Shown: positions 34,397 to 59,468 of the stretch, piece after piece
How positions within the stretch are numbered: the first letter of the stretch is position 1
How the letters are laid out: every line of letters starts with the position of its first letter
DNA from: Roseovarius marisflavi
Lineage (GTDB): Bacteria; Pseudomonadota; Alphaproteobacteria; Rhodobacterales; Rhodobacteraceae
Direction: 5' to 3'
Length of the DNA stretch: 64,000 nt
Assembly: GCF_900142625.1 (NCBI RefSeq)
Contig: NZ_FRBN01000004.1
Span: 124,001 to 188,000 of the forward strand
Made by a program: the position numbers and the translations under genes
Notes under the pieces: generated by a model
Seen by the model: the letters and a program-made list of their open reading frames with translations, nothing else
Told to the model about the DNA's origin: nothing
Database searches by the model: none

Positions 34397-35566
34397 TTGA
34401 ACCAGAACTCCTTTGAATGGCGGGACTCCGCGACGGTGCTTGGATCGGACGTCGCGATGTCGCACCTCTGCGCACTGGTGCGCGCGCGCGCCTCGATTGC
34501 GGTTTCCGCCTCGGGCGTTGCGCCGCTTGACAGCCCCTCGTCTGACCCCGCGCGCTATCTTCACTGCGCGACCTCGGGCTCTGGCGGAGAGCCCAAGATT
34601 ATCCGGCGCACGCAATCCTCCTGGATGGAAAGTTTCGCGGTCAACGGGCGGGTGCTTGGCCTGTCATCGCGCGATTGCGCCGCGGTGTTCGGAACGCTGG
34701 CGCATTCGCTGGCGCTTTATGGCACGTTAGAGGCCGCCCATCACGGTGCGCGCATTCTTGGCCTGCATGGCTTGCGCCCCGACCGCCAGCTTGCCGCGCT
34801 TGAGCGCGAACAGGCAACGGTCCTTTACATCACGCCAACGCAGCTTGGCCTGCTGAGCGCGCAGGACACCCCCCCAATTCAATCGACACGCCATATTCTG
34901 GTCGGCGGTGGCCAACTTAGCGAAAGGATCGCGACCGACGCCGCAAGGACGTTTCCCAATGCCCGGCTGATCCATTTCTATGGCGCGGCCGAGACCAGCT
35001 TTGTCAGCTGGGCAAACGACACCACGCCGCTCGGTTCGGTCGGAGCCGCCTATCCCGGTGTCTCGATTTCGATCCGCGATGCGACGCGTCATGAAACCGA
35101 TCAGATCGGCGAAATCTGGGTCAAGAGCCCCTATCTCTTTGACGGCTACACCAGCGGTCAAAGCGCCGATACCCGCTGGGATGGCGCGTATCTTTCGATT
35201 GGCGAGCTGGGGCGGCTGGATGCGGCGGGCAACCTCTTTGTCGTTGGGCGCAAAAGCCGAATGGTGACAATCTCTGACATCAATGTCTTTCCCGAAGAGA
35301 TCGAAGGCTTTCTGGCCGCAACCCTTGGCACCGGCAGTGTCGCGGTACTCCCCCTGCCCGATGCAAAGCGCGGTCATCGCCTTGTCGCGGTCGTCGCCGG
35401 CGCCGATGCCACGATGAGCGAACACGATCTGCTGGTGCTTTGCCGACAAACCCTTGGCCCGCTGCGCGCCCCGCGCCGGGTGCATTTTGTCGCCGCCCTG
35501 CCGATGCTGGCGGCAGGCAAACCCGACTATTGCACACTTACCCAATGGGTCGAGGCCACCGCATGA
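34397..35566 (+). CDS. Short AMP-binding (ANL superfamily) acyl-CoA synthetase
   Basis: 389 residues, about 120 fewer than a normal acyl-CoA synthetase; the N-terminal part before the P-loop is missing. The adenylation motifs are present: CATSGSGGEPKIIRRTQSSW (P-loop), HFYGAAETSFVSW, LSIGELGRLDAAGNLFVVGR (GEL/GDLGR hinge) and the C-terminal KPDY region with the expected catalytic lysine. The start is the TTG at 34397, because an in-frame TAG lies just before it and the first ATG (34457) would remove conserved sequence. It activates a carboxylic acid to an acyl-adenylate/CoA ester. Its stop overlaps the thiolase start by 4 bp. Confidence 0.82.
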   Translation: MNQNSFEWRDSATVLGSDVAMSHLCALVRARASIAVSASGVAPLDSPSSDPARYLHCATSGSGGEPKIIRRTQSSWMESFAVNGRVLGLSSRDCAAVFGTLAHSLALYGTLEAAHHGARILGLHGLRPDRQLAALEREQATVLYITPTQLGLLSAQDTPPIQSTRHILVGGGQLSERIATDAARTFPNARLIHFYGAAETSFVSWANDTTPLGSVGAAYPGVSISIRDATRHETDQIGEIWVKSPYLFDGYTSGQSADTRWDGAYLSIGELGRLDAAGNLFVVGRKSRMVTISDINVFPEEIEGFLAATLGTGSVAVLPLPDAKRGHRLVAVVAGADATMSEHDLLVLCRQTLGPLRAPRRVHFVAALPMLAAGKPDYCTLTQWVEATA

Positions 35567-36669
35567 CGCATAGCTATATTGTCGCCGCCAAACGATCCGC
35601 CGTCGTGCCCCTGAACGGCGCTTTTGCGCATCTGGAGTTTCATGATATCGCCGCCCCGGTGATCCGCGCCTGTCTTGTCGGCTGTGGCCTCGCCCCCGAG
35701 GAGGTTGGCGAAGTGATTGTCGGCAACGCCCTTGGCGCGGGTGGCAATCCTGCGCGGTTATGCGCTCTGGCGGCGGGCCTGCCCGAGCATGTGGCGGGGC
35801 TTTCGATTGACCGGCAATGCGCCAGCGGCCTCGACGCGCTTAACCTCGCCGATGCGATGATCCGTTCTGGTCAGGTGGAGATCGTCGTGGCCGGCGGCAC
35901 CGAGAGCTATTCGCGCCGCCCCGAACGCGCCCGCACCTTTGCCGATGGCCGCCCCGCCCTGCCCTATGCCCAGGCCCGGTTTACCCCCTGGCCGGACCGC
36001 GACCCCGACATGCATGTGGCCGCAGATGCCCTAGCCGCAGAGCTTGGCATCCCCCGCGCCGCGCAGGATGCCTGGGCCGTGCAAAGCCATGATCGCGCGC
36101 TCCGGGCGCGTCACCGGCTGGCGCGCGAGCTGATCACGATTGGGGGCATCACAGACGATCCCTTCACCCGTGCCCTTTCGCCCGGCCTTTGTACGCGAAG
36201 CCGCGCGATGGTCGGCACCATCACGCCCGCCAATACCTCGGTCGCGGCCGATGGCGCGGCGTTTTGCGTTGTGGTCTCGGAGCGGATCGCGCGCAGCCTT
36301 GATGCGCCGGCCGTCAAGATCATCGGCGGCTGTACCCTGGGCGGACGCCCCGACCTTCCCGGTCTGGCGCCTGTCGCGGCGATCCAGAAACTTCTGCACG
36401 ACGCCAGTCTCTCCCCCGATCACCTTGCCGTGGCCGAGATAATGGAGGCCTACGCCGCACAGGCCATCGCCTGCGTCACCGAAAGCGGTATCCCCCCCGA
36501 GATCGTCAACCCCGGCGGCGGATCGCTTGCGCGCGGCCACCCCATAGGCGCATCCGGCGCGATCAATGCCGTGCGGCTTTATCATGAATTGGTCGCGCGG
36601 GGCGGCACAGGGATTGCGGCGATTGCCGCCGCCGGGGGGATCGGCACGGCGCTCTTGCTGCGCGCCTAG
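35563..36669 (+). CDS. Thiolase family protein (acetyl-CoA acyltransferase-like)
   Basis: 368 residues from ATG 35563 (overlaps the ligase stop). The nucleophilic Cys lies in LSIDRQCASGLDALNLADAM, the His/Cys end is in NPGGGSLARGHPIGASGAIN, and the final GGIGTALLL is standard. The usual second cysteine motif near the end (CxGGG) appears as AAAGGIG, so the Cys proton donor of biosynthetic thiolases is replaced by Ala; this may favour a non-standard condensation or cleavage. It forms an operon with SDR and AMP-ligase genes, suggesting chain extension or shortening of a specific acyl-CoA. The true role is unknown. Confidence 0.85.
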   Translation: MTHSYIVAAKRSAVVPLNGAFAHLEFHDIAAPVIRACLVGCGLAPEEVGEVIVGNALGAGGNPARLCALAAGLPEHVAGLSIDRQCASGLDALNLADAMIRSGQVEIVVAGGTESYSRRPERARTFADGRPALPYAQARFTPWPDRDPDMHVAADALAAELGIPRAAQDAWAVQSHDRALRARHRLARELITIGGITDDPFTRALSPGLCTRSRAMVGTITPANTSVAADGAAFCVVVSERIARSLDAPAVKIIGGCTLGGRPDLPGLAPVAAIQKLLHDASLSPDHLAVAEIMEAYAAQAIACVTESGIPPEIVNPGGGSLARGHPIGASGAINAVRLYHELVARGGTGIAAIAAAGGIGTALLLRA

Positions 36670-36683
36670 GGTCTGTTGATTCC

Positions 36684-36730
36684 GCATGTTTGAGAAGCTC
36701 AAAACCGGTTCCCACTTTTGAGCAACATGC
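36684..36730. repeat. Nested palindromic intergenic repeat between convergent genes
   Basis: An outer 7-bp pair (GCATGTT 36684-36690 with AACATGC 36724-36730) encloses an inner perfect 8-bp pair (GCTCAAAA 36697-36704 with TTTTGAGC 36716-36723) around CCGGTTCCCAC. The core resembles palindromic intergenic repeats that are abundant in Rhizobiales and other alphaproteobacteria (AAAACCGGTTCCCACTTTTG type). It fills the 62 bp between the convergent thiolase and nitroreductase and could serve both as terminator. Confidence 0.65.
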
Positions 36731-39351: not shown

Positions 39352-39447
39352 GCCATCGACACTAGCGAATGCAAGCGGGCACGAACATGCCCCATGATAT
39401 CATTGCCGCAGTTTCGCGGCTGATCAATCGGCGATAGCGGCCTTTTC

Positions 39448-40521
39448 CTAGGCCTGAGCCCGTACGCCCGGCTCGCCCGCGCCCAGAATGAAATGGAACG
39501 ATGTGCCATTTGGGGCATTGGGTTCGCACCAGATTGTTCCACCATGGCGCAAGGCGATTTTGCGACAGGTCGCAAGGCCAAGCCCCGTGCCCTGGGGGGG
39601 CATTCCAGCCATTGATCCGACGAAACGTCTCGAAAATGCGGCCGCGAAATTCCTCCGGAACACCCTGACCGTTGTCCGAGACCGTCACCCTGAGCCCCTT
39701 TGCAACCCTCTGCGTAGACACGACTATATCGGGCGTCTCCTCACCGCGATACTTGATTGCATTGGCAATCAGATTCTGAAGCACCTGCGCCACCTGCGGG
39801 GCGGAACACACGGCGCTTGCCCCGACGTCGTTGGTCCGTACTTGCGCGCCACTCAACGAAATGTCGCGCTCATTGGCCATGATCGCACGCTCGAAAAGCT
39901 CGCCAAGATAGGCCTCGCAAAACGGCTCATCGGAATCGACCCTGGTCAGCATGGCCAGACTCTCGATCAACTCTGACATCTGCCGGGTGGAGCGGTTCAA
40001 CAAGCCAAGACTGACCTGCACATCCGCCATATCCCCGTTCTCAAGACCCTCTTTTATCTGTTCGGCCAGAAAGCTGGCTCCCCGGATCGGCGCCTTGAAA
40101 TCATGCACAAGAATATGCGCAAAGGTTTCAAGCTCCTGACGCTGCAGATCAATCTTGGCCTGCATATGCGTCAGGGCAATCCTGGTATCCAGCATCCGGA
40201 ACAGCGCGTTCTGATTTAGCGACCGCTTGGAAATATAATCCGATGCGCCAAGCTGAATCGCCGATTTTGCAATCTCTTCATCGCCATGCCCGGTCATCAG
40301 GATATAGGCCGCACCCGGCCATTTTTCCTTGAGCCCCTTGAGCATCTCCAGCCCGGTCAGATCCGGCATCAGATAATCAAGCAGGACAACATCCGGCACC
40401 ATGTCGGCAAACGATTGCGCCTCTTTGAAACTCTTGGCCTCATAGACATTGGCCCCCTCCGGACGCCCCGCCAGCAAGCGCCGGATCAGCTTGAGATCGC
40501 CAAAACATCAATCACACTCAT
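39448..40521 (-). pseudogene. Degenerate receiver-histidine kinase hybrid
   Basis: The gene should start at ATG 40521, one base after the upstream regulator stop, and encode MSVIDVLAI, but a non-triplet deletion around 40495-40505 breaks the frame and removes the acidic pocket of the receiver domain. In the restored frame it continues DLKLIRRLLAGRPEGANVYE, LLDYLMPDLTG (phosphoacceptor Asp) and then a histidine kinase: HILVHDFKAPIRGASFLAEQ (H-box) and QVLQNLIANAIKYRG (N-box). At 39594-39600 a run of seven G (plus strand) holds one base too many; after it, the G-box GTGLGLATCRKIALRHGG is only readable in the next frame, ending at 39448. Two independent lesions make function unlikely. Confidence 0.8.
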
Positions 40522-40522
40522 A

Positions 40523-40987
40523 TCAAGCGATCCTATCCAATCTCATGTCCGGCAGTTCGACAATCCGCCAGAAGTGATCAAGCGTGCCAATCAGATCAAC
40601 AAAATCGCTGCCCGCGTTCTGCTTTTGAATATAGCCCGTCACATTATGCGCATAGGCCGCCGCCCTGTCGCGTTCATCGCTTGACGTGGTCAGCAGAAAC
40701 GCAACCGCCTCCTTGAGCAGAGGGTCTATCCGGATTTCCTCCAACAACTCGATGCCATTCATCCGCGGCATGTTGAGATCAATCAAAAGTATGTAGGAAT
40801 CCGGCGGCGTTCCGGTTTCGCCGCGCAAGAGGCCAAGCGCCTCGATCCCGTCAACCACACGCATAACCGGGTTGGCGATTTTTGCGCGCGTCAGTGCCCG
40901 CCTTATGGCCTTTGCATCGCCATCGTCATCTTCGACAAGGATGATATCAAGTGGCGGCCGTTCGCTCAGTTTCACTGAGTCACTCAT
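40523..40987 (-). CDS. Stand-alone CheY-like response regulator (Rcp1 type)
   Basis: 154 residues, a single receiver domain with no output domain. The acidic pocket is IILVEDDDGD, the phosphoacceptor D70 is in LLIDLNMPRMNG, and a conserved Lys (K122, YIQKQNAG) is present. This form is typical of the Rcp1/phytochrome-associated regulators that pair with histidine kinases. It is the only undamaged gene of the four-gene signalling operon; its start (ATGA at 40984-40987) overlaps the stop of the damaged upstream kinase. Its partner kinases on both sides are broken, so it is probably orphaned. Confidence 0.88.
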   Translation of the reverse strand: MSDSVKLSERPPLDIILVEDDDGDAKAIRRALTRAKIANPVMRVVDGIEALGLLRGETGTPPDSYILLIDLNMPRMNGIELLEEIRIDPLLKEAVAFLLTTSSDERDRAAAYAHNVTGYIQKQNAGSDFVDLIGTLDHFWRIVELPDMRLDRIA

Positions 40988-42377
40988 GCTGCTTGTCCCT
41001 TCTGGGAGTTATTTTGAATCACGCAAGGCCAGAAAATCCGAAATTCGGCCCCTCGTCCCGCGCCCAAAATCACCTCAATACGCCCGCCCGCAAGCTGGAC
41101 ATGCTTTTTGACAATGGCGAGGCCCATGCCACTTCCATCGACCTGATCGCGCGGGCGCGCAGGGTTTGACCCAAAAGCTGGTTCCCAAGGGAGGCAAAGG
41201 CAAGGGTCAGTTCCCCGATTTCGTCATTGGTCGAGACCATAAGATCAAAAGGTTTGGCCCCGGCGTGCCTGCGAACCGCATCGGCGAGTTGGAGCAGTGG
41301 ATCGGTAAGGTGCGCGCCGAAGATCCCCGCGATACCGATGGCAAGAAAAATCAGGACAAAAGCCACAACCGCATTCCGAACCAGCATCTTGTTCGCAGCC
41401 GCAAAAAGGGCGTCGCGCGGCATTTCCGTCACCACATAAAGGCCGAACGGACGATTGAGTTGCGGGGTCACAACCGCGTTTGCGGCCATCGCCACATCGC
41501 CGGCAAAGAAGATTTGCCCCGGACCAGCCTTTGATGCGATTTCCACATCATGCGGCGGCGGAATGAAATCAGGATCGGAATGATAGAATAGCTTTGGTCT
41601 CGAATCATCGGCGCTGAAGGTCATGTGATCCCCCAGGCCCGTCACCACACCAAGCCGGAAGCCCTCCGAAACGGTTGGCCTCGCCGCAGTAATCAGAGCC
41701 TGAAAATCCGCATTTACGACGATGACGCCATATAAGGCACCTTCCTCATCCAACACCGGCTGCACGTAGCGAATGGTTGGCGGGCCAACTTCGATTCCAT
41801 GCTCGCGGTTGTAGGTCACCGTCGAAAAATAGCCATGGCCTGCGGCCTGCCTTACGAGGTCTTTCAAGTACGGCTCGCCGCCTTTGGCTTGAAGATCCGC
41901 AGTATCGACGGCATTTATATGATCCTCATGACGGCCGACGCGAACACGTTCGCGCCAGTTATCCGCTTGGCCGATAAACCTGAGCTGCGTGTAATGCGGG
42001 CGCGTTGTCAGGATCGATCTGAAAATCTCCTGAAGCCGGTGTTTACGCTGCGCCTTGAGGGACCCCGGCTGCACATCGCCGCCATCGGAGATTTTATCGC
42101 GTTGAACAATTTCCCTGACCGGCGGCAGCCCGGCAAACACAGTGGCATCAATGGCTGTCTGTTCAAGCACATCGGCGATCTGTTCGGATTGATGCCGTGC
42201 AATGTCACCTAACCGGTCTGTGGCGGCATGCCGGACGGTTGCACGCACCTGGGAGTAGGCCATGGCGGCGAAAATAACCGCCATCGCCAAGGTCATGCAG
42301 AGCGTCATCATCACAAGCTTGCCGCGCAAACGAAACCCGTTTGTTGGGGCCGTGACCAACAGACCCGGCGCGGTCAT
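40984..42377 (-). pseudogene. Degenerate Cache-domain histidine kinase with internal deletion
   Basis: The N-terminal part is normal: an N-terminal membrane helix (LVMMTLCMTLAMAVIFAAMA), a periplasmic dCache-like sensor (LGDIARHQSEQIADVLEQTA to YVVTEMPRDALFAAANKMLV), a second helix and a HAMP region (AHLTDPLLQLADAVRRHAGA). Right after the HAMP the frame jumps at about 41150-41165: phosphotransfer domain and most of the ATPase domain are missing. The terminal G-box VDGSGMGLAIVKKHVQLAGG and the tail ending QNNSQKGQAA are readable only in the neighbouring frame, stopping at 40984 in overlap with the regulator start. The ancestral start overlaps the stop of the upstream gene (ATGA at 42374-42377). 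Confidence 0.8.
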
Positions 42378-43107
42378 TCCAAACGCGGAGGTCTTGGCAC
42401 ACCTTTTCCATCTACTGCGTCACGCGCGACCGCGACCAATCCGTTGACCTCATCAAGGTAACCAAACAGATTGGCGCAATCATCTTCCAGCCCCTGACGG
42501 TTGCGCGCAACGTTCGGGTTGGTCGCCGCATCGCCGCGCAGGCTTCGAACCCGGCGCATCATTGCCGCCATGATGGCCCGCATATCCGGCGCACTTGCCC
42601 GTGAAAACCGGTCAACGGTCTCCGCAAGCGACGCGCGCGTGGAGTGTTCAGAGGTGATCACGGCCAACAGCAGGTTGCGCTCGATCGCCATGGTCACCGA
42701 CTTGCGAATACTTTCGGCGCTCAGCTCGTCCTTGATCAGGTAATCGGCACAGCCTGAGCGCATCGCTTCGACGATGATGTCATGCTCGCCAACGCTCGTG
42801 ACCATGATCGGGATCGCGTCTCTCTGCCGACCATGCGCTTTTACAAGCGCAAGCGCCTCAAGCCCGGTTTCAACGCCAAGATGATAGTCAAGGAAAACCA
42901 GGTCGAACTGATAGCGATCAAGCGCCGCCGCCATTTGCGCAAGATCACCTGCCTCTTCGGCCTTGAAATTCAGACCGGTCTTTTGCAAAAGATGATGATC
43001 CGGTGGCGATCAACAGGGTCATCATCGACAAACAACACCGACGAAAGATGTTTCTCGGTCGGAACGACAAGCTGAGAGGGTTGGATGTCTTTTGCCCTGT
43101 CTTTCAT
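42374..43107 (-). pseudogene. Degenerate response regulator, frameshifted near its N-terminus
   Basis: The start at ATG 43107 (GGAAAAC upstream) encodes an N-terminus ending VLFVDDDPVDRHRI, a normal receiver start. Within a triple GAT repeat at 42991-42999 one base has been lost, so the frame stops after FCKRPV. The continuation (QKTGLNFKAEEAGDLAQM, then LVFLDYHLGVETG with the phosphoacceptor Asp and ADYLIKDEL) reads in the next frame to 42374. The C-terminal ~70 residues match no DNA-binding domain. It is the first gene of the four-gene signalling operon. Confidence 0.75.
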
Positions 43108-43663
43108 CGGCGTTTTCCTTTTTAAACTAGGCCGCGCCTGCCGCCTTTTACGGGCGTCAAAACGGCATATATCCGGGGGCATTCCCCAATTGGCTGATGT
43201 TGCGGCACGCCACAAAGCGCAGCCCCAAAGCCCATTAAACACGCGTCCAATGACAAGCCTCAAAAGGCGAGCCCATCACAGCCTGACCCTCAGAATGCCA
43301 AATCCGGACTAAGAAACGATTAAGAAAAATACACCGCGCCGACCCATGCGCCACAAAGAGCCCGCCACGGCGCGGCGCGGTCTGCAAAGCCCGGGCACCG
43401 CCGACAACCCGGCGCGCATCAGGGCCTTGCAACCGGCATGAAAGCCCTACTTTGGTCGTAGGAACCGCCCCCATCAAAGCCTTGCTCTTTGGAAAATCTA
43501 GGCTAGGCTCGCGTCTTGTGAATGCAACGTAAGAGGTATTTTCACTGGCCTGCGAAGGGGAGAGCGCGCGCCGGTTCAGCGTTTCGATTGCAAGACCAGG
43601 CGACCCGATTGTAGCCCTGACACGACGATCAAACACGTAAGATTTTCAAATGGGAGGAACCAC
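43108..43663. other. 556-bp intergenic region, with an inverted repeat upstream of the PQQ dehydrogenase
   Basis: No gene is supported; the minus-strand frame at 43235-43636 has an irregular composition and no recognisable domain. CCTAC-TTTGGTC-GTAGG at 43446-43462 is an inverted repeat with 5-bp arms, about 200 bp before the dehydrogenase start. A GGGAGGA ribosome site precedes 43664. Confidence 0.4.
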
Positions 43664-45504: not shown

Positions 45505-45518
45505 CTCCGGCCAATCGG

Positions 45519-45870
45519 TCAATGTGCGTGGAGTCTGGCACCAGCACCACCGTTTCCTGCGGCGGTTTTCCCCGGCGTGATACCCTGTGCCTGAAACCGG
45601 TTGGGGTTGGCCATTAGCTTCGCGGCCCAGAGGCTGATCTTGGCAAAGTGCCGGGCCTTGCGCGGCGGTTTCGGGTAGAGCGCGCGGCATTTATGTGAAT
45701 CGGTCAGCATGAGTGATTTCAAACCCTGCGGGCCAGGGTAAAAGCTTTCGACAGCAAGCCCCTCTGCTAAGATGATCTCGTGCCGGTCGAAGGCGAGGTT
45801 GACAACATCGGCCCGGCCGGTGCCCATAATGCGGGTGACGGCCGGATGCGACGCCAGCGCCTTTGCCGCC
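45519..45870 (-). pseudogene. Remnant of a Hint-domain protein
   Basis: On the minus strand the frame reads ASHPAVTRIMGTGRADVVNL, then AFDRHEIILAEGLAVESFYP and GPQGLKSLML. The FDRHEII...ESFYPG pattern is that of the C-terminal Hint (intein-like) domain common in secreted proteins of Rhodobacteraceae. The N-terminal part of such a protein is absent, and the frame extends upstream into unrelated sequence, so this is read as a leftover 3' end. The C-terminal tail through 45519 looks plausible. No start codon or ribosome site fits. Confidence 0.5.
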
Positions 45871-46023
45871 CTGCCCGAGGTTTTGGGCGCGCGACTTGCG
45901 CCCTGCACCCTTTTCGCGGAAAACCAGACCCGGCGGCTTAATCCACCCAAAGCGCACCAAATGCTGGAGTTACCCGCAAGGAGTGCGTAGAACCAACTGA
46001 ACCCGAATGACCAAGGCCCTCGC

Positions 46024-47734: not shown

Positions 47735-48418
47735 ATGCAGACATTCGATCTAGAGGCCGACGGGCTGCGCGCTCTTAATTCCACGCTGCACGCCCAAAAG
47801 GAAAGCACCAACGCAACCGCCTGGGAAATCATCAACCCCAAGGGCAGCCACGCGCTTGCCGTGGGCGTCGATGCCCCGCTCGATATTACCGTGCGCGGCT
47901 CGACCGGGTATTACTGCGCTGGCATGAACAAGCTTGCCACGATCCGCATCAAGGGCAATGCCGGACCGGGCGTGGCGGAAAACATGATGTCGGGCAGCGT
48001 CATCATCGACGGTGACGCAAGCCAATATGCTGGCGCCACCGGGCGCGGCGGTACCCTTGTGATCAAGGGCAATGCCGCCTCTCGCTGTGGTATCTCGATG
48101 AAGGGCATCGACATCATCGTGCATGGCAACATCGGCCATATGTCGGCCTTCATGGCGCAATCGGGCAACCTTGTGGTCTGCGGCGATGCCGGCGACGCGC
48201 TTGGCGACAGCCTCTATGAGGCGCGGATTTTCGTGCGCGGTTCGGTCAGGAGCCTTGGCGCGGATTGCATCGAAAAGGAAATGCGCCCCGAACATATCGA
48301 GATCCTGCGCGATCTTCTGGCCCGTGGCGAATGCGATGCCGACCCGTCGGAATTTCGCCGCTATGGCTCGGCCCGCAATCTCTATAATTTCAACGTCGAC
48401 AACGCGTCGGCCTACTGA
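47735..48418 (+). CDS. glxC: GXGXG-domain protein, GlxC-like (glutamate synthase alpha C-terminal homologue)
   Basis: 227 residues forming the right-handed beta-helix of glutamate synthase's C-terminal domain: repeating G-x-x-G-G turns such as RIKGNAGPGVAENMMSGSVI, GATGRGGTLVIKGNAASRCG and MAQSGNLVVCGDAGDALGDS. It is a structural subunit that joins the amidotransferase and FMN subunits of a three-part GOGAT-like enzyme. Its position between glxB and glxD with 3- and 11-bp gaps shows a single operon. Confidence 0.9.
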   Translation: MQTFDLEADGLRALNSTLHAQKESTNATAWEIINPKGSHALAVGVDAPLDITVRGSTGYYCAGMNKLATIRIKGNAGPGVAENMMSGSVIIDGDASQYAGATGRGGTLVIKGNAASRCGISMKGIDIIVHGNIGHMSAFMAQSGNLVVCGDAGDALGDSLYEARIFVRGSVRSLGADCIEKEMRPEHIEILRDLLARGECDADPSEFRRYGSARNLYNFNVDNASAY

Positions 48419-48429
48419 GGCACATTCAG

Positions 48430-49464
48430 ATGACTGATCAATCGCCGAAAATTCCCCAAACCGTGCCGCGCCAGTCCGCCACTTTCACCAATGAGATCAA
48501 CTCGGAAATCCGCCGAGCTGCGGCGACGGGCATCTATGATATCCGCGGTGGCGGCGCCAAGCGCAAAGTCCCGCATTTCGATGACCTCTTGTTCCTTGGT
48601 GCCTCGATCAGCCGCTATCCCCTCGAAGGCTATCGCGAAAAATGCAGCACCAATGTCACCCTCGGCACCCGCTTTGCCAAAAAGCCGATCGAGCTTGATA
48701 TCCCCGTCACCATCGCCGGCATGAGCTTTGGCGCGCTGTCGGGCAACGCCAAAGAGGCGCTTGGCCGCGGCGCCTCGCTTGCGGGCACCTCGACCACCAC
48801 CGGCGACGGCGGCATGACCGAAGAAGAGCGCGGCCATTCCAAAACGCTGGTCTACCAGGTGCTGCCCTCGCGCTATGGCATGAACCCCGATGACCTGCGG
48901 CGCGCCGATGCGATCGAGGTGGTGATCGGTCAGGGCGCCAAGCCGGGCGGCGGCGGCATGCTTCTGGGGCAAAAGATCACCGACCGGGTCGCCGAGATGC
49001 GCACCCTGCCCAAGGGCATCGACCAGCGCTCGGCCTGTCGTCACCCCGATTGGACCGGCCCCGACGATCTTGAAATCAAGATCCTCGAACTGCGCGAAAT
49101 CACCGGCTGGGAAAAGCCGATCTATGTGAAAATCGGCGGCACGCGACCCTATTATGACACCACTCTGGCGGTCAAGGCGGGTGCCGATGTGGTGGTTCTT
49201 GACGGCGTGCAGGGCGGCACGGCGGCAACACGGGACGTGTTCATCGAACACGTCGGCCTGCCGACGCTGGCCTGTATCCGCCCCGCCGTTCCGCCGCTTC
49301 GCCATTCTTGTATCCATTCATGCGGGTTGGATACATCTTGGCATGCTGTCCGAATTTGCCGGGCCGCTTCCGGCCTATGGCGCGATGCTTTCACTCAAAG
49401 GGCATCCAGGCAGGTGCCCTTTATCGTTCAAGCGGAAGCCGGCACGCTCTGTTCGCTCTCGTAG
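48430..49464 (+). pseudogene. glxD: Truncated FMN glutamate-synthase-like subunit GlxD
   Basis: The first ~287 codons are a normal GlxD/MgsC (FMN domain): IAGMSFGALSGNAKEALGRG, VVIGQGAKPGGGGMLLGQKI, YVKIGGTRPYYDTTLAVKAG and VVVLDGVQGGTAATRDVFIE. After TLACIRPAV (codon ending 49290) the sequence has no family similarity and about 150 C-terminal residues, including the GGIRSG-type FMN phosphate site and 3Fe-4S cysteines, are lost. The frame continues by chance to 49464 across the end of phoH. This junction matches a rearrangement breakpoint, so the Glx complex here is probably inactive. Confidence 0.82.
49397..49422 (-). terminator. Stem-loop terminator behind phoH
   Basis: AAAGGGCA (49397-49404) pairs with TGCCCTTT (49415-49422) in a perfect 8-bp stem with a 10-nt loop, immediately beyond the phoH stop at 49428. 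The A/T-rich stem ends substitute for a U-run. Confidence 0.55.
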
Positions 49465-50453
49465 GCCTCGATGATCGCGGCCACAAGCGGATGGCGTACC
49501 ACATCTTTGGATGTGAAATAGTTAAAGCTGATCTTGGGAATGGCCTTCAAAAGACGTTCCGCGTCGGCCAGCCCCGACGGCACCCCTCGCGGAAGGTCGA
49601 TCTGGGTGCGATCGCCGGTGATCACCATGCGGCTGCCCTCGCCGAGGCGGGTCAGGAACATCTTCATCTGCATCGTGGTGGCGTTCTGCGCCTCGTCCAG
49701 CACCACAAAGGCGTTCGACAGGGTGCGCCCGCGCATGAAGGCCAGCGGCGCGATCTCAATCCGCTTTTCCTCAATCAGCTTGGCAAGCTGCTTGCCGGGC
49801 AGGAAATCGTTGAGCGCGTCATAGAGCGGCTGCATGTAGGGGTCGACCTTGTCCTTCATGTCGCCGGGCAGATAGCCAAGCTTTTCACCCGCTTCGACCG
49901 CCGGGCGCGACAGGATGATGCGATCCACATGGCCTTCGATGAACATATTCACCGCCACTGCAACCGCCAGATAGGTCTTGCCGGTGCCCGCTGGCCCGAT
50001 GCCAAAGGCAAGTTCATTGGCAAAAAGCGAGTGAACATAGGCCTTTTGCGCGTCGGTGCGCGGCTCGACCAGCTTTTTGCGGGTCTTGATCTCGACCGCA
50101 CCGCCCTTGAACATCTCAAGCTGATCACCGTCGCGCGCGCCGGTGCCCGCATCCGAGCCGCCCATGCGCAATTCGCGGTCGACATCGCCGTGCTCCACGC
50201 CTTTACCGGTTTCAAGCCGCCCGTAAAGCGCGTTCAGCACGGTCACCGCCTCGGTGGCGGCGGCCTCGTCGCCGATGATCGACAACTGATTGCCGCGCCG
50301 GACGATCTGCACGCCAAGGCTGCGCTCGATCGCGGCAAGGTTCTTGTCGTATTCGCCGCATAAATCAATCAGCAGCTTGTTATCGGGAAATTCAATAACG
50401 GCTTCGTGGATCGAAGCCACGTCGGAAACGGGGGGTGGCGCACTATGGACCAA
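49428..50453 (-). CDS. phoH: PhoH family protein (YbeZ)
   Basis: 341 residues. A helical/KH-like N-terminus (LLIDLCGEYDKNLAAIERSL) precedes a PhoH P-loop ATPase: FGIGPAGTGKTYLAVAVAVN (Walker A), HVDRIILSRPAVEAGEKLGY, FVVLDEAQNATTMQMKMFLT (Walker B) and MVITGDRTQIDLPRG. The protein is a ribosome/RNA-associated NTPase that works with YbeY. The likely start is the TTG at 50453, behind GGAGAA; an in-frame stop precedes it. In most proteobacteria miaB, phoH, ybeY, corC and lnt are collinear; here phoH faces away from ybeY. Confidence 0.92.
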   Translation of the reverse strand: MVHSAPPPVSDVASIHEAVIEFPDNKLLIDLCGEYDKNLAAIERSLGVQIVRRGNQLSIIGDEAAATEAVTVLNALYGRLETGKGVEHGDVDRELRMGGSDAGTGARDGDQLEMFKGGAVEIKTRKKLVEPRTDAQKAYVHSLFANELAFGIGPAGTGKTYLAVAVAVNMFIEGHVDRIILSRPAVEAGEKLGYLPGDMKDKVDPYMQPLYDALNDFLPGKQLAKLIEEKRIEIAPLAFMRGRTLSNAFVVLDEAQNATTMQMKMFLTRLGEGSRMVITGDRTQIDLPRGVPSGLADAERLLKAIPKISFNYFTSKDVVRHPLVAAIIEAYESEQSVPASA

Positions 50454-50602
50454 TCAGTTCTCCAAAAACCAGAGGTGTGATTTCAGCCTGCCAAGTTGCG
50501 GGGCAAGGTGCAAGCGGTGGGTGGCAAAACTTTGCTGACCACAACGAAAAACTGCGGACCTTTCGGCCCGCAGTTCAATTTTTCGACCAATGGCCGCTCC
50601 GC

Positions 50603-50920
50603 TCAGAGCGAATCCGGGATCGAGCTGCCACCTTTGAAGTTGCCGGTGGCAACCGTCGCCGGCCCGACGCCCGAACAGACCGGCTTGCCGAATTTATCCA
50701 GACGCTGCGACAGGTAGCCCTCGACGCCATCGTCGATGATCCAGTGATCACAGCCGTTGGGGTCAATCCAGATACCAGCCTGAAGCTGGCTCAGGTGTTT
50801 CCGGTCGGTGCCGCGATCGCTGGTCTTGTCGGACCCGATCGCGCCATGAGCGCCACCTTCACAGGCGGCAAGCAGGCCGATGATCGGAAGCGCAAGTGCA
50901 AGTTTAACTGTTTTCATCAT
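50603..50920 (-). CDS. Small lipoprotein with a Cys-containing repeat domain
   Basis: 105 residues with a lipoprotein signal (MMKTVKLALALPIIGLLAAC, lipobox LAAC with the lipidated Cys). The mature part contains IWIDPNGCDHWIIDDGVEGY and, about 10 residues later, GKPVCSG. The same motif is in the OmpA-family gene immediately upstream (IWVDPDGCEHWVMDDGAEGY ... GIPVCRE), so the two share a small domain, with a probable disulfide between the two Cys. It is 9 bp from that gene, so they form an operon. Function unknown; cell-envelope location is very likely. Confidence 0.8.
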   Translation of the reverse strand: MMKTVKLALALPIIGLLAACEGGAHGAIGSDKTSDRGTDRKHLSQLQAGIWIDPNGCDHWIIDDGVEGYLSQRLDKFGKPVCSGVGPATVATGNFKGGSSIPDSL

Positions 50921-50929
50921 CCGATCCCC

Positions 50930-51511
50930 TTAACGCCAGCACAAGATTTCGACACGGCGGTTTTTGGCCATGCCCGCTGCGGTATTGTTTGACGCCTTGG
51001 GCATCCGTTCGCCGTACCCACGAACATCGGCAATGCTCGCGCCGGTGCGCTTGGCGACCGAGGCAACCGCATTGGCACGACGCAGCGAAAGACCCATGTT
51101 GTATTCATCCGAGGCGCGGCTGTCGGTGTGACCGACGATGGTATAAGACACCGCTCCTGCCTTCTGGAAGAACTCCGTAAGGCGCTGGCGACCGCCGGAA
51201 TTGATGCGCGCGCTGTCGGTGGCAAACATCTGGTCGGTATTGATCACGCCACAAAGGTTCACCTCGCGACAGACCGGAATGCCCTGGCGGCTGACATGGG
51301 GGGACATATAGCCTTCGGCCCCGTCATCCATGACCCAATGCTCACAGCCATCGGGATCAACCCAGATTGTCGGCACATAGCGCTCGCCAACGATGGTGCG
51401 TTGACCGCCACTCTGGGCAAAGCCCACCTCCGCTGTCATGGCGACACAAAGGGCAGCGGCACAAACGCCCCCGACCATGCCGCGCAGCGTTTTCGAAATA
51501 ATTTTCGTCAC
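50930..51511 (-). CDS. OmpA family peptidoglycan-binding protein with N-terminal Cys domain
   Basis: 193 residues from a GTG at 51511 (AAAAGGA upstream); frame-open codons upstream to 51679 lack a signal peptide. A signal peptide is followed by the Cys domain (IWVDPDGCEHWVMDDGAEGY), then a C-terminal OmpA/MotB domain: FATDSARINSGGRQRLTEFF, YTIVGHTDSRASDEYNMGLS and LRRANAVASV ending YGERMPKASNNTAAGMAKNR. It is exported and anchors non-covalently to peptidoglycan. It pairs with the small lipoprotein downstream that carries the same Cys domain. Confidence 0.85.
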   Translation of the reverse strand: MTKIISKTLRGMVGGVCAAALCVAMTAEVGFAQSGGQRTIVGERYVPTIWVDPDGCEHWVMDDGAEGYMSPHVSRQGIPVCREVNLCGVINTDQMFATDSARINSGGRQRLTEFFQKAGAVSYTIVGHTDSRASDEYNMGLSLRRANAVASVAKRTGASIADVRGYGERMPKASNNTAAGMAKNRRVEILCWR

Positions 51512-51700
51512 CCTACTGTCCTTTTCGTGGCCCCGGCCAAACACGTGCAACAAAGGCACCGACCGACCGTTAAATATGGCTGAATTGTAGCAATAATCAA
51601 AAGAAAGTGAAGCAAATTCCACCATATATTGTGGATAGAGTTGAAACAATCCATAGAGCTCGCCGTAATTCTGCCACAATCAGGGCAAATAGCGCAGGTT

Positions 51701-53029
51701 TCAGCCCCGGACCAAACGTCCGGCCAAAGAGTTGGTGCCGCTCTCGATGATCTCGACACGGGCCAGATCGCCCACGGCAACATCGGCATTGGCCACGTGA
51801 ACCGCGTGCAGGTAATCTGATTTCCCCATCATCTGCCCCTCAAGGCGACCGGGCTTTTCGAACAAAACCCCCACGGTGCGCCCCACCATCGCGTCCTGAA
51901 TGGCGCGTTGCTGGCGGGTGATCAGGCCTTGCAGACGTTGCAGGCGCTCGGATTTCACATCCTCATCGACCTGCGCGCGCTCGGCGGCGGGGGTGCCGGG
52001 GCGGGTCGAATATTTGAACGAATAGGCATAGCCGTAATTGACCTCTTCAACGAGATCCAGCGTGGCCTGAAAATCGGCTTCGGTCTCTTCCGGGAAACCG
52101 ACGATGAAATCGCCCGACAACAGGATATCGGGGCGCGCCGCGCGAATGCGCTCGATCAGGCGCAGATAGCTTTCGGCGGTATGGCTGCGGTTCATCCGCT
52201 TGAGGATCTTGTCGCTGCCCGACTGCACCGGAAGATGCAGATAGGGCATCAGCTTGGCGCATTCGCCATGCGCCGCGATAAGGTCGTCGCCCATGTCGTT
52301 GGGGTGGCTGGTGGTAAAGCGGATGCGTTCAAGACCGTCGATGTTATTGAGCGCCCAGATCAGCCGCGCCAATGTCCAGTCACCGCCGTCCTCGCCCGCG
52401 CCGTGATAGGCGTTCACGTTCTGGCCCAGAAGGGTGATTTCGCGCACGCCGCGCTCGACCAGGTTGCGGGCCTCTTCGAGGATGCGGCTGGCCGGGCGGC
52501 TTACCTCGGCGCCACGGGTATAGGGCACCACGCAGAACGCACAGAATTTGTCACAGCCCTCCTGCACCGTCAAAAAGGCGGTCGGGCCACGCGCGGCCTT
52601 GGGCCGGTGGCGAAGGGTGTCGAATTTGTCGTCGGCGGGAAAATCGGTATCAAGCGCCGTGCCCCCGGCGCGCACCTTGGCCTCCATCTGGGGCAGTCGG
52701 TGATAGCTTTGCGGCCCGACCACCAGATCGACCAGCGGCTGGCGGCGCATGATCTCTTCGCCCTCGGCCTGCGCGACACAGCCCGCCACGCCGATTTTGA
52801 GATCAGGGTTCGCGGCCTTGAGATCGCGAAAGCGGCCCAGCTCGGAATAGACCTTTTCGGCGGCCTTTTCGCGGATATGACAGGTGTTGAGCAGGATCAT
52901 GTCAGCGTCATCGGGGCTTGTGGTTTCGACATAACCCGCACCGCCCATGGCCTCTGCCATCCGCTCGCTGTCATAGACGTTCATCTGACAGCCATAGGTC
53001 TTGATATAGAGTTTTTTCACATCGGCCAT
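51701..53029 (-). CDS. miaB: tRNA-2-methylthio-N6-dimethylallyladenosine synthase MiaB
   Basis: 442 residues. ATG 53029 is chosen because the sequence from [21 protein letters not shown] matches MiaB; a longer frame upstream lacks similarity. Three domains are visible: the N-terminal UPF0004 with 4Fe-4S Cys in [26 protein letters not shown] and [12 protein letters not shown]-like positions, the radical SAM core with [17 protein letters not shown] and the C-terminal TRAM domain ([18 protein letters not shown]). It methylthiolates i6A37 in tRNAs. It is usually followed by phoH and ybeY; here it is separated from phoH by two envelope genes and reversed relative to ybeY. Confidence 0.95.
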
Positions 53030-53138
53030 ATGCCCGGCTCCTGCCATGGTTTCAGGGGGCCTGACTACATCACTTTCAGGGGCACTTGCAATGCGTCTGC
53101 GTTTGGCCGATTCTTGCACCAAAAGGACCGAGCAACGC

Positions 53139-54014
53139 ATGCCCTCACCGCGCCTCAGAGACTTTCTTGCCAACCCCGGCAAGGCCCTTGCAAAAGGGCC
53201 TGTGGCCATGGTGTTTGCCGAAGATGAGACCGAGCTTAATTCGACCCTGCGCCATCATCTTGATTCGGGGTTCAAATCGGTGCTGGCGTTCTTGCCGGAC
53301 AACTTTGATCTCGCCCCCGACGTGGCACAGGCCGAGACTGTTTACCGCATCCAGCATGATCTTTCGGGCGGCGACAGCCTGAGCGAGGCGGTCAATGCGG
53401 TGATTGCCGCCGCGCCGGGGCTTTGGATGTATTACTGCTACAACGCCGAATACCTGTTCTATCCGTTCTGCGAAACGCGCACCGTCGGGGAAATGCTTGC
53501 CTTTCACGCCGAAGAGCGGCGCGACGCGATGCTGTGCTATGTGATCGACCTTTATGCCGACGATCTTGATACCCATTCAAATGCGGTCTCGCTGGAACAT
53601 GCGCATATGGACAAATCCGGCTATTATGCGCTTGCCCGGCCCGATCCGGGCAATCACAACCACGCCAAGGAACGCCAGCTTGATTTCTTCGGCGGCCTGC
53701 GGTGGCGCTATGAAGAGCATATCCCGTCCAAGCGCCGCAAGATCGACCGGATCGCGCTTTTCAAGGCCAGGCCGGGGCTGATCCTGCGCGAGGATCACAC
53801 GTTCAGCGAGGAAGAATACAACACCTATGCCTGTCCCTGGCATCACAATCTGACAAGTGCGATCGTATCTTTTCGCACCGCCAAGGCGCTCAAGCGCAAC
53901 CCCGGCTCGACCTTTGATATCCACACGTTCAAGTGGCACAATTCCATTCCGTTTGACTGGCATTCGCGACAATTGCTGGATCTGGGGTTGATGGAACCGG
54001 GGCAGTGGTTCTAG
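53139..54014 (+). CDS. Glycosyltransferase-family-2-like protein (Glyco_tranf_2_4 type)
   Basis: 291 residues from ATG 53139; two earlier in-frame starts (53046, 53091) overlap the miaB 5' end. The protein has a Rossmann-like N-terminus ([20 protein letters not shown]), a mid-region DMYADDLDT-like segment ([20 protein letters not shown]) and a late [20 protein letters not shown] and [18 protein letters not shown] that are characteristic of Rhodobacteraceae proteins annotated as hypothetical or family 2 glycosyltransferases. No signal or membrane segments. It is divergent from miaB and ends 10 bp before an IS3 remnant. Confidence 0.6.
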
Positions 54015-54023
54015 TCAGGCATT

Positions 54024-54125
54024 TGGCGGCTCTCAAATTCGCTGGATGCCAGCTTTTGCGCTGAAGCCCTGGAGGAGGCTATTTCCAGCTACGGCAAGCC
54101 AGAGGTCATGAATGCGGACAATCAT
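54024..54125 (+). mobile_element. IS3-family transposase fragment (rve integrase domain)
   Basis: Thirty-four codons read WRLSNSLDASFCAEALEEAI then SSYGKPEVMNADNH, matching the region before and at the conserved N-T-D-Q step of the IS3-family OrfB DDE domain (here NADNH). There is no start codon, catalytic glutamate or terminal inverted repeat, so it is a scrap from an old insertion. Confidence 0.75.
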
Positions 54126-54491
54126 ATGATAGTCTCCGGTTCTCGGGTGGTTTGACTCAAACAGCGACCGACCTGACACGAGTCTTTCCCTGGACCTGTC
54201 GACTGCCCGGGAACGCCTTGCGGTGAGGCTTTGTCTCGAAGATGCCGCGTGACCCAGGAAGGGCCTGACCATCTGGTCTCATGACTGTCCTGAAAAGCAG
54301 GACCACTTCATTCTGAGCGCTCCGATGTGCATGTTTATGAATCTGTTCAGGCCCCGCGACCTCGGTTGCCTTTGCTCAAGACGTTTACCTCGAACCGGGG
54401 GGCTGGCTTCTCAAGCTTGCTGTCGGGTCATCTCGGACGTAATAGGGATGCATCCTTACACTTCCACTTCCAGCATTCTGCGTGAGCTTCC
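54126..54491. other. 366-bp non-coding debris between IS3 remnant and ybeY
   Basis: No gene, promoter or intact IS end is supported. The base composition is more balanced than in neighbouring genes. A short stem (GTCCTG/CAGGAC around AAAAG, near 54287-54303) occurs. This stretch, with the IS3 scrap, is the right-hand candidate breakpoint of the proposed inversion. Confidence 0.45.
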
Positions 54492-54980
54492 ATGTTAACT
54501 GAAATCCTGATTGAAGATGAGCGCTGGGCCCTCCTGGATTTCAGCCCACTTGCCGAACGCGCGGCCCAGGCCACCCTGATCCATCTCGGCCTTGATCCCG
54601 CCGATTGGGAAATCAGCATTCTGGGCTGTGACGATGCGCGCATAGCCGTGCTGAACGCGGATTTTCGTGAAAAGCCGCAGGCGACCAATGTGCTGTCCTG
54701 GCCAAGCGAAGAGCGCGCGGCGCAAACCCCCGGCGCGCTGCCCGATCTGCCGGTGCCGGGCCCGGATGCTGGGCTTGGCGATATCGCCATCGCCTATGAC
54801 ACCTGCGCCGCCGAGGCGGAAGCTGGCAACAAGCCGCTTGCGGATCATGTGACGCACTTGATTGTTCACGCGGTGTTACATTTGTTGGGTTATGATCATA
54901 TCCGTGACCAAGATGCCACTTTGATGGAAGCAACCGAAGTGGCGATACTTGGCAAACTGGGGTTACCTGACCCATATTAG
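54492..54980 (+). CDS. ybeY: Endoribonuclease YbeY (16S rRNA maturation)
   Basis: 162 residues, typical for YbeY. The metal-binding motif HAVLHLLGYDH gives H126, H130 and H136, and the upstream NVLSWPSEE resembles the conserved NVLSFP region. The enzyme processes the 3' end of 16S rRNA and takes part in 70S quality control. The start ATG 54492 sits directly after the non-coding debris. It is followed by corC, lnt, metK and trmB on the same strand. Confidence 0.94.
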   Translation: MLTEILIEDERWALLDFSPLAERAAQATLIHLGLDPADWEISILGCDDARIAVLNADFREKPQATNVLSWPSEERAAQTPGALPDLPVPGPDAGLGDIAIAYDTCAAEAEAGNKPLADHVTHLIVHAVLHLLGYDHIRDQDATLMEATEVAILGKLGLPDPY

Positions 54981-55019
54981 GACATTGGGCGCTTGTGCCC
55001 GCAAACTAGAAAGAGACGG

Positions 55020-55907
55020 ATGGGCGAGAGTATCGACGGGTCTTCTAACGCAGCGCAAAGCGCGCAGCCGGAAGACCAAACGGCAAGTGAAGAAACAGGC
55101 GGTTTTTTTCGCCGTTTCATAGGTGTGTTCAACCCCACCGATGCCACTGCTTTGGACGAGCAAGAAGATGCAACGCCGACCAACGGCGGCTTTGGCATGC
55201 GCAACCTGCGTGACATGGCGGTCGAAGACGTGGCCATCCCCAAGGCCGATATCGTCTCGGTGCCCGCTACCATAACCAAGGACGAGCTGGTGCATGTTTT
55301 CCGCAACAGCGGCATGACCCGCCTGCCGGTCTATGAGGGCACGCTGGATACGCCGATCGGCATGGTGCACCTCAAGGATTTCGCGCTCAAGCACGGGTTC
55401 AACGGCAATGGCGGGCGCTTTTCGCTCAAGCGGATGCTGCGGCCCTTGCTGTTCGTGCCGCCCTCGATGCCGATTGGCGTGCTTTTGCAAAAGATGCAGG
55501 CCGAGCGGCGCCACATGGCGCTTGTGATCGACGAATATGGCGGCGTTGACGGGCTTGTCACCATCGAAGACCTGATCGAACAGGTCGTCGGCGAGATCGA
55601 GGACGAGCATGACATCGACGAGGGCCATTTCTGGAACGAGGAAAGCCCAGGCTGTTACGTGGCGCTCGCCAAAACCCCGCTTGAGGATTTCGAGGCAGAG
55701 ATCGGCCAATCGCTGACGGATGTGGATTCGGTCGATGAAGAGGAAATCGACACGCTCGGCGGGCTGGTCTTCATGCTGCTTGGCCGGGTGCCGGTGCGCG
55801 GCGAGGTGATCGAGCATCCCGCCGGGCCGGTGATCGAGGTGATGGAGGCCGATCCGCGCCGGGTGAAACGCCTGCGCGTCCGGCTTGCCGAGCCGGTGAA
55901 TGGCTAA
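55020..55907 (+). CDS. corC: CorC/HlyC family CBS-domain protein (YbeX)
   Basis: 295 residues from ATG 55020 (AGAGACGG upstream); a TTG at 54993 is less likely. After a Ser/Glu-rich N-terminus come a CBS pair (ITKDELVHVFRNSGMTRLPV to HMALVIDEYGGVDGLVTIED) and the C-terminal CorC_HlyC domain (VDSVDEEEIDTLGGLVFMLLG). No membrane segments are present, so this is the soluble form encoded beside ybeY and lnt and associated with magnesium/cobalt homeostasis or ribosome-linked functions. Its stop overlaps lnt by 8 bp. Confidence 0.92.
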   Translation: MGESIDGSSNAAQSAQPEDQTASEETGGFFRRFIGVFNPTDATALDEQEDATPTNGGFGMRNLRDMAVEDVAIPKADIVSVPATITKDELVHVFRNSGMTRLPVYEGTLDTPIGMVHLKDFALKHGFNGNGGRFSLKRMLRPLLFVPPSMPIGVLLQKMQAERRHMALVIDEYGGVDGLVTIEDLIEQVVGEIEDEHDIDEGHFWNEESPGCYVALAKTPLEDFEAEIGQSLTDVDSVDEEEIDTLGGLVFMLLGRVPVRGEVIEHPAGPVIEVMEADPRRVKRLRVRLAEPVNG

Positions 55908-57423
55908 CCTTTCAGGCCTGCCGGACCGGGCCTTGTGCCGCCTTGTCGGCTTGGCGCCCCTGCGCCGCTGGCTAAGTGTCATTGCGATCGGCGCACTCGC
56001 CGCTCTGGGGCAGGCGCCATTTGGCCTTTGGCCGGTGACCCTTGTGATGGTCGCGCTGCTCTTTGGACTTTTTCTCAAGGTCTCTGACTGGCGTCAGGCG
56101 GCGGGGCTCGGCTGGGCCTTTGGCACCGGGTATTTCCTTGTGGCGCTCAGCTGGATCGTCGAGCCCTTTCTGGTCGATGTGGCGCGCCACGGCTGGATGG
56201 CGCCTTTCGCCTTGTTGGGTCTGGCGGCGGGGCTTGCCCTGTTCTTTGCGGCCGGCCTTGCGCTTGGCCGTGCGCCGGGGGGCGGTGCGGCCGGATTTAT
56301 CGGCGGGCCTGGCTTGGCCGAGGCCGCGCGCGGATATATTTTCACCGGGTTTCCATGGGCACAGCCGGGGCATGTGTTGATTGATACGGGCCTGTTGCAC
56401 TGGGCCTCTTATGCGGGAGCGCTCGGGCTGACGGCGCTTGTGCTTGGCGGGGCAGCGGCGCTTTGGCATGCGGTGTCGGGCGGGCGGGTCGCCGCCGTGG
56501 TGGTGGTTGCGCTTGGCTTGCTCTGGCCCTTGGGCGCCGGTTTGCGCCCCGATGCGGCGGCGCAGACCGGCGCGCCGACCGTGCGCCTGATCCAGCCCAA
56601 TGCGCCGCAGCATGAAAAGTGGCAGGCTGACAAGATACAGGGGTTTTTCGACCGCCAGATCCTGTTCACGCAGGCGGGGGAGCAACGCCCCGATCTGATC
56701 GTCTGGCCGGAAACGGCGGTGCCGGTCATGCTCAACAACGCCGCGCCGACGCTTGAGGTGATCTCGGCGGCCGCGGGCGGCGTGCCGGTGGTCGTGGGGT
56801 TACAACGCCATGACGATCGGCGGCTTTTCAACTCGCTGGCGCTGGTTGAGGCGGGCGGCACCGTCGCGGCGGTCTATGACAAGCATCATCTGGTGCCCTT
56901 TGGCGAATATGTGCCCTATGGCGACTGGCTTGGGCAGATCGGCATTCACGGCCTCGCCGCAAATGAGGGGCAGGGCTATTCCTCGGGGCCGGGGGCGCAG
57001 GTGATCGACATTGGGGGGCTTGGCGCGGCCCTGCCGCTGATCTGTTACGAGGGGGTCTTTGCGCAGGATGTCCTGTCGGCGCCCCGGCGGGCGGATTTCA
57101 TGCTTTTGATCACCAATGACGCCTGGTTCGGGCAGGTCTCGGGGCCCTATCAGCATCTGGCACAGGCCCGGCTGCGCAGCGCCGAACAGGGCCTGCCGAT
57201 GATCCGGGTCGCCAATACCGGCGTCTCGGCGATGATAGACGCCACTGGCCGGATCACGGCCCGCATCCCGATGGGACAGGCAGGCTGGCGCGATGCGCCC
57301 TTGCCGCCGCCCCTGCCGCCGACGTTTTATGCGCGCACCGGCGATCTTGGGGCGATCGTGCTTTTCGCTCTGCTGCTTGCGCTGTCACGCATTGGCCACA
57401 GGAAAAACGCCCGCCGCATATAG
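55900..57423 (+). CDS. lnt: Apolipoprotein N-acyltransferase
   Basis: 507 residues. Six to seven N-terminal membrane helices (including ALFFAAGLALGRAPGGGAAG) precede a periplasmic nitrilase-fold domain with the catalytic triad E271 (VWPETAVPVM), K328 (YDKHHLVPFGEYVPYG) and C382 (LPLICYEGVFAQD). It transfers the third acyl chain onto the N-terminal Cys of lipoproteins in the inner membrane. It overlaps corC by 8 bp. The next gene, metK, is separated by a 91-bp leader holding a riboswitch. Confidence 0.95.
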   Translation: MANLSGLPDRALCRLVGLAPLRRWLSVIAIGALAALGQAPFGLWPVTLVMVALLFGLFLKVSDWRQAAGLGWAFGTGYFLVALSWIVEPFLVDVARHGWMAPFALLGLAAGLALFFAAGLALGRAPGGGAAGFIGGPGLAEAARGYIFTGFPWAQPGHVLIDTGLLHWASYAGALGLTALVLGGAAALWHAVSGGRVAAVVVVALGLLWPLGAGLRPDAAAQTGAPTVRLIQPNAPQHEKWQADKIQGFFDRQILFTQAGEQRPDLIVWPETAVPVMLNNAAPTLEVISAAAGGVPVVVGLQRHDDRRLFNSLALVEAGGTVAAVYDKHHLVPFGEYVPYGDWLGQIGIHGLAANEGQGYSSGPGAQVIDIGGLGAALPLICYEGVFAQDVLSAPRRADFMLLITNDAWFGQVSGPYQHLAQARLRSAEQGLPMIRVANTGVSAMIDATGRITARIPMGQAGWRDAPLPPPLPPTFYARTGDLGAIVLFALLLALSRIGHRKNARRI

Positions 57424-57463
57424 TGATTGACGCCATCGGGGCAGGGGCGTAACCAAGCTCGCA

Positions 57464-57509
57464 TTCGTCACAACGGCTTCCTGACGTGGCGCAAGAGTAT
57501 ATTGGAGCG
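57464..57509 (+). ncRNA. SAM/SAH riboswitch controlling metK
   Basis: Just before metK the leader has CGTCACAACGGCTTCCTGAC (57466-57485), GTGGCG and, after a linker, ATTGGAGCG with the ribosome-binding GGAG (57504-57507). CGUCAC (57466-57471) pairs with GUGGCG (57486-57491); the CUUCC part pairs with GGAG as a pseudoknot that hides the Shine-Dalgarno sequence. Order and core words match the SAM/SAH class described for Rhodobacterales metK leaders (core ACAACGGCUUCCUG..GUG..UUGGAG). Ligand binding would lower MetK translation. Confidence 0.88.
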
Positions 57510-57514
57510 TTTTC

Positions 57515-58681: not shown

Positions 58682-58689
58682 TCAAGGGG

Positions 58690-58717
58690 CTGGCGCGCGT
58701 TCTTCGCGTGCCAGTTT
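58690..58717 (+). terminator. Stem-loop behind metK
   Basis: CTGGCGCGCG (58690-58699) pairs with CGCGTGCCAG (58705-58714) over 10 bp (one G-U) with a TTCTT loop and a short TTT. It lies 8 bp after metK and 12 bp before trmB, so it probably attenuates rather than fully separates them. Confidence 0.6.
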
Positions 58718-58725
58718 AACTGAAT

Positions 58726-59439: not shown

Positions 59440-59468
59440 GGCTCGTCCGGCAAGGGGCGGATGAGCGC

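Follow-up and report, generated by a model that had tools for sequence, protein, structure and literature searches.

A four-gene two-component operon of the marine bacterium Roseovarius marisflavi is broken in three of its genes, its copy in the sister species R. gaetbuli is broken by other lesions, and a third relative has no operon at the same place. We consider it highly probable that the operon was gained by a common ancestor of the two carriers, was held under constraint for long and was then inactivated separately in both lineages. Decay of this type is ordinary pseudogenisation, a known and well-documented process, and the added result is its parallel course in two sister species. Caught in mid-decay in both of them, and set beside an operon-free relative, the operon provides a small natural record of how a signalling system is gained, used and lost in parallel, and its deletions at short repeats show one path by which an operon decays. 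It also holds a warning for annotation, given that three of the four genes in R. marisflavi would enter annotations as shortened, unusual kinases and regulators. Our literature searches did not meet the decay of this operon, which does not show it to be unpublished.

The stretch analysed here (the window) comprises 64,000 nucleotides of R. marisflavi (C52:124001-188000) and was compared with a genus set of 84 genomes, 72 of which have a completeness of 90% or more and a contamination of 5% or less. The operon is carried by two genomes, both draft assemblies: that of the window and that of R. gaetbuli CECT 8370 (G009), in which it lies on contig C69 (NZ_FWFJ01000004.1).

Gene content and relation to known systems

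The operon, as read in the window, consists of the following genes:

42374..43107, minus strand: gene 1, broken; response regulator with a receiver and a C-terminal part (Response_reg in Pfam; receiver open in R. gaetbuli)
40984..42377, minus strand: gene 2, broken; sensor histidine kinase of which the sensor part remains, with the last ATPase motif in a different frame
40523..40987, minus strand: gene 3, open; Rcp1-type response regulator with a single domain (Response_reg, E 7.8e-14)
39448..40521, minus strand: gene 4, broken in the window; receiver-HisKA-HATPase hybrid, open only in R. gaetbuli (366 aa)

The ATGA overlaps and one-base gaps described in the initial annotation are legible in the window sequence, the overlaps at the junctions of genes 1 and 2 and of genes 2 and 3, and a one-base gap between genes 3 and 4. 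Gene 1 now falls into two pieces, one starting from the ATG at 43107 and the second being the ORF at 42374-42988. Its C-terminal part has no match in Pfam; the same part (window 42374-42700) is also present in an open homologue in genome G002 (L027:8878-9582). PF21623 is the sole Pfam family matched by the sensor part of gene 2, for which NCBIfam gave no match. Its previous designation as a Cache-HAMP kinase holds for the kinase, with Cache and HAMP being labels of the initial annotation only. The gene 2 tail at 40984-41127 resembles the end of HATPase_c at a score below the cut-off (20.6 against 26.4), and the R. gaetbuli frame across the part missing from the window matches PAS, HisKA and HATPase in Pfam. 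Gene 3, previously described as a CheY-like regulator and the only intact gene, is indeed open and matched by Response_reg; its final codons carry small indels relative to R. gaetbuli. None of the four products matched a DNA-binding domain in the Pfam scans, so phosphate was probably handed on among the components of the operon or to an outside partner.

LvrAB is a phosphorelay of Leptospira. Gene 4 of R. gaetbuli aligns with LvrB (NF047466) over residues 4-354 of 366 and has the same receiver-then-kinase order, in which the receiver is followed by HisKA and HATPase, and LvrA (NF047465) is the best NCBIfam match for both gene 4 and the kinase part of gene 2. However, the scores stay far below the curated cut-offs of these families (LvrB, 92.2 against 500; LvrA, 121 and 108.3 against 1200). 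Gene 3 aligns through residues 9-145 of 154 with residues 5-144 of Rcp1 (1i3c), a near full-length match to a single receiver, and RcpA, RcpB and bacteriophytochrome response regulators in the PDB match it as well. As in phytochrome/Rcp1 pairs, gene 3 comes after a kinase gene; in contrast to these pairs, the sensor of gene 2 is PF21623, and no phytochrome domain was matched. Cassettes in two other genomes of the genus, G002 and G008, contain in this order a kinase core (39-42% identity to gene 2) and homologues of gene 3 (45-46%) and gene 1 (30-33%), all of them open, and G013 has the kinase core and the gene 3 homologue. The G002 and G008 cassettes differ from the window operon in that they have other sensor regions, carry the gene 1 homologue last rather than first, and include no gene-4-like receiver-then-kinase gene among the matching ORFs listed.

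Lesions in the two species

Alignment with the R. gaetbuli copy reveals four lesions in the window operon, breaking three of its four genes:

42981..42984, minus strand: lesion 1, gene 1; four A against five in R. gaetbuli, frame lost
41146..41152, minus strand: lesion 2, gene 2; junction of an 889-bp deletion at a GCGCGAT repeat
40496..40503, minus strand: lesion 3, gene 4; loss of 19 bp at an imperfect TTGGYGAT repeat that R. gaetbuli has in two copies
39594..39600, minus strand: lesion 4, gene 4; one extra base at a C7 run (G7 on the plus strand)

All four had been proposed from the window alone, and all four are real. The one-base loss in gene 1 had been assigned to a GAT repeat at 42991-42999, and here the loss holds but its position does not: the GAT repeat aligns to R. 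gaetbuli with one substitution and no gap, and the missing base belongs to the A run, which sits 7-18 bases away. Gene 2 had been seen to pass straight from its sensor part to the last ATPase motif, and 889 bp are indeed absent at the junction 41152-41146. R. gaetbuli retains both GCGCGAT copies at a spacing of 889 bases; the deletion removes the PAS and HisKA domains and most of the ATPase domain, and its length leaves a remainder of one when divided by three. The missing 889 bp occur nowhere else in the window's assembly, and the same search recovers 889 bp in R. gaetbuli. A mixed assembly as the source of the missing kinase domains, which the initial annotation had named as fatal to its reading, is therefore rejected for the kinase part of gene 2. 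In gene 4, the non-triplet deletion expected near 40500 corresponds to 19 bp absent at 40503, taking part of the start of the receiver, and the extra base in the G7 run, where R. gaetbuli has one base fewer, puts the two portions of the HATPase domain in different frames. Set against an open homologue, genes 1, 2 and 4 carry disabling lesions, as expected of a pseudogene operon; for genes 1 and 2, the R. gaetbuli reference copy is itself broken elsewhere, yet open across the lesion of the window.

While comparison with a relative's operon, as initially suggested, confirms the four lesions, the R. gaetbuli operon is not intact either. Its gene 1 is interrupted by an in-frame TAA (TCA in the window) and its gene 2 by an in-frame TAG (CAG in the window). 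In addition, a 186-bp deletion between copies of GGCGGGC, both of which persist in the window (41088-41082 and 40902-40896), fuses gene 2 to gene 3, the start of which is lost. Contig C69 both ends and starts within the operon. The contig's end carries, 39 bases past the last gene 1 match and on the opposite strand, an incomplete frame for an integrase-core transposase (rve_3, E 1.7e-22); at its start, the gene 2 match is preceded by other DNA with a short open frame that is reminiscent of an IS110-type transposase but matched no Pfam family. The segment of 822 bp that separates the two matches (window 41619-42440) was not found in the R. gaetbuli assembly, where a longer query including its flanks did match. 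The deletions of 889 and 19 bp in the window and of 186 bp in R. gaetbuli all lie at direct repeats of 7-8 bp, one of them imperfect. In the parts present in both genomes the two species share not a single lesion; the parts absent from either one (41619-42440 and the 889-bp kinase part) do not allow a check for an older, shared lesion.

Distribution and origin of the operon

Gene 2 has a match in two of the 84 genus genomes, those of the window and R. gaetbuli, and in 11 of 385 sampled genomes of the class; one of the 11 is the window's own, and the remaining ten are 27-31% identical. A pattern search of a species-genome collection, which reaches close relatives only and from which the window's own record is possibly left out, found R. 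gaetbuli as the only relative of gene 2. Viral contigs yielded no relative of this gene and plasmids no DNA match to it, and no donor of the operon was found among species genomes, viral contigs and plasmids.

In the third relative (G019), the operon is absent and its flanks are adjacent, with the flanking dehydrogenase and ABC-transporter genes about 475 bp apart. Comparison with this genome delimits the insert:

39393..43429, no strand assigned: insert containing the operon; homology to G019 reaches up to 39392 and starts again at 43430

The site in G019 is occupied by some 155 bp of unrelated sequence, and no remnants of the operon were recovered by blastn of this sequence between the flanks or by a DNA search of the whole G019 genome. 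Over the flanks, the two carriers agree at 93.9% and 95.8%, and G019 is equidistant from them (85.9% and 85.9%; 91.3% and 91.0%), so that a gain before the carriers split and a loss in G019 both fit. GC content is 0.570 in the insert and 0.607 in the remainder of the window; GC3 of the operon is 0.595-0.665, compared with 0.727 on average in the neighbours (sd 0.033). Since the highest operon value (gene 4, 0.665) exceeds the lowest neighbour (0.650), this composition is only suggestive of gain. Low GC3 and the failure of gene 2 to match any of the remaining 82 genomes of the genus favour gain over loss, and we infer that the operon was acquired, probably before the window species and R. gaetbuli split, rather than lost from the other relatives. 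The edges of the insert, each searched alone, contain no direct repeat; one short palindrome is present at an edge (43380-43405). Upstream of gene 1, the window has 84 bp (43327-43410) and R. gaetbuli 14 bp, a possible promoter difference.

Selection on the operon and its neighbours

The neighbouring genes used for comparison come from the parts of window 1-49300 that are collinear with C69. They comprise 35 of 41 automatically chosen ORFs that are open in the window, with overlaps resolved in favour of the lowest dN/dS; four were dropped for a dN/dS above 1 (5199-5690, 13920-15095, 36031-36702 and 48412-49317) and two for lying inside the operon (39362-40477 and 41166-41534). Relative to R. 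gaetbuli, no frameshift or stop falls well within any of the 35 genes, in line with the few lesions initially noted outside the operon. Frame-shifting gaps occur in four neighbours: two have compensating pairs 7-8 bases apart, one has its gap in the stop codon, and one has it 13 bases past an automatic GTG start, with an ATG further in in both genomes. One of the 35 has an in-frame TGA in R. gaetbuli, 14 codons past an automatic TTG start. Two ORFs that look like real genes but were excluded by the overlap rule (13896-15179 and 35440-36669) show no stops and no net frameshifts. The density of lesions in the operon compared with its neighbours is more than chance.

For the 852 codons that the two genomes have in common, the operon has a dN/dS of 0.174 and a dS of 0.242, and the neighbour medians are 0.069 and 0.217 (n=35). 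Because five of the 35 neighbours exceed the value of the operon, dN/dS alone does not show relaxation. It is also far from the value near 1 over the whole divergence that is expected only if inactivation preceded the split. Given a dN/dS of 0.17 and neighbour-like dS, inactivation looks recent and separate in each species; the operon would have been under constraint for most of the time since the split, with the individual lesions left undated by dN/dS. The similarity of its dS to that of the neighbours fits vertical descent since the split.

Alternative explanations

Homopolymers are also places where sequencing errors arise, and two of the four window lesions are single-base differences in such runs. 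However, the 889- and 19-bp deletions at direct repeats are not base-calling errors, the missing kinase DNA is absent from the assembly, the neighbours are clean and the sister species is damaged differently, which argues for loss of selection, as initially proposed, and makes an error of sequencing or assembly (mixed assembly included) extremely improbable. A single inactivation before the split, for example through an altered promoter or damage to a part since lost from one genome, would have left both copies to decay neutrally. Both copies are indeed broken, the stretch upstream of gene 1 differs between them, and 41619-42440 and the 889-bp kinase part are not comparable; but the dN/dS of the operon far below 1, the lack of a common lesion wherever both copies can be compared, and the open state of gene 4 in R. 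gaetbuli and gene 3 in the window render such a shared event unlikely.

The open Rcp1-type gene 3 could have been kept for another kinase, as a reduced system that would be compatible with the preferred reading. Its dN/dS of 0.21 (bootstrap 0.08-0.47) is in keeping with this idea, which nevertheless appears doubtful, as gene 3 lacks a start in R. gaetbuli, lies downstream of two broken genes and finds its closest match elsewhere in the window's own genome at 31% identity. There is, finally, a modest chance that the parallel loss was adaptive rather than due to drift, the operon having grown costly in both species; genes 3 and 4 are the last ones open, in opposite lineages.

According to the preferred reading of ancestral gain and separate inactivation, the common ancestor of the two species would have acquired, on a plasmid-like replicon, a phosphorelay operon of four genes: a response regulator, a PAS-histidine kinase with its own sensor, an Rcp1-type response regulator and a receiver-kinase hybrid. 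Purifying selection would have acted on the operon through most of the divergence of the two species, before its use was lost in both lineages and each inactivated it separately. In the window lineage this may have come about through the deletions at short direct repeats and the gain or loss of single bases in homopolymers, and in R. gaetbuli through stop codons, one deletion at a repeat and one or more transposable elements. Signalling by the operon would have ceased.

The replicon

In R. gaetbuli, C69 encodes RepC beside ParB/RepB-like and ParA-like genes, a repABC-like module (C69:112715-115586) in which the RepB model scores below its cut-off (22.6 against 30) and ParB_N above. C69 maps, with gaps, in one circularly permuted order onto C52:35065-173300 and therefore behaves, judged by gene order, as a circular replicon. 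The replicon that bears the operon is thus plasmid-like in R. gaetbuli, and probably so in the window species. RepC was not found in the window's genome, which has a Rep_3 initiator near the corresponding place (C52:57321-58592; PF01051, E 7.7e-20). That collinear replicons differ in their replication genes, Rep_3 in the window's genome and repABC-like in R. gaetbuli, suggests that the replication module was swapped. Collinearity with C69 stops near 49300, and window 49301-64000 has no counterpart on this contig; at window 45512-45937, about 0.4 kb stand in place of about 10.7 kb of DNA in R. gaetbuli.
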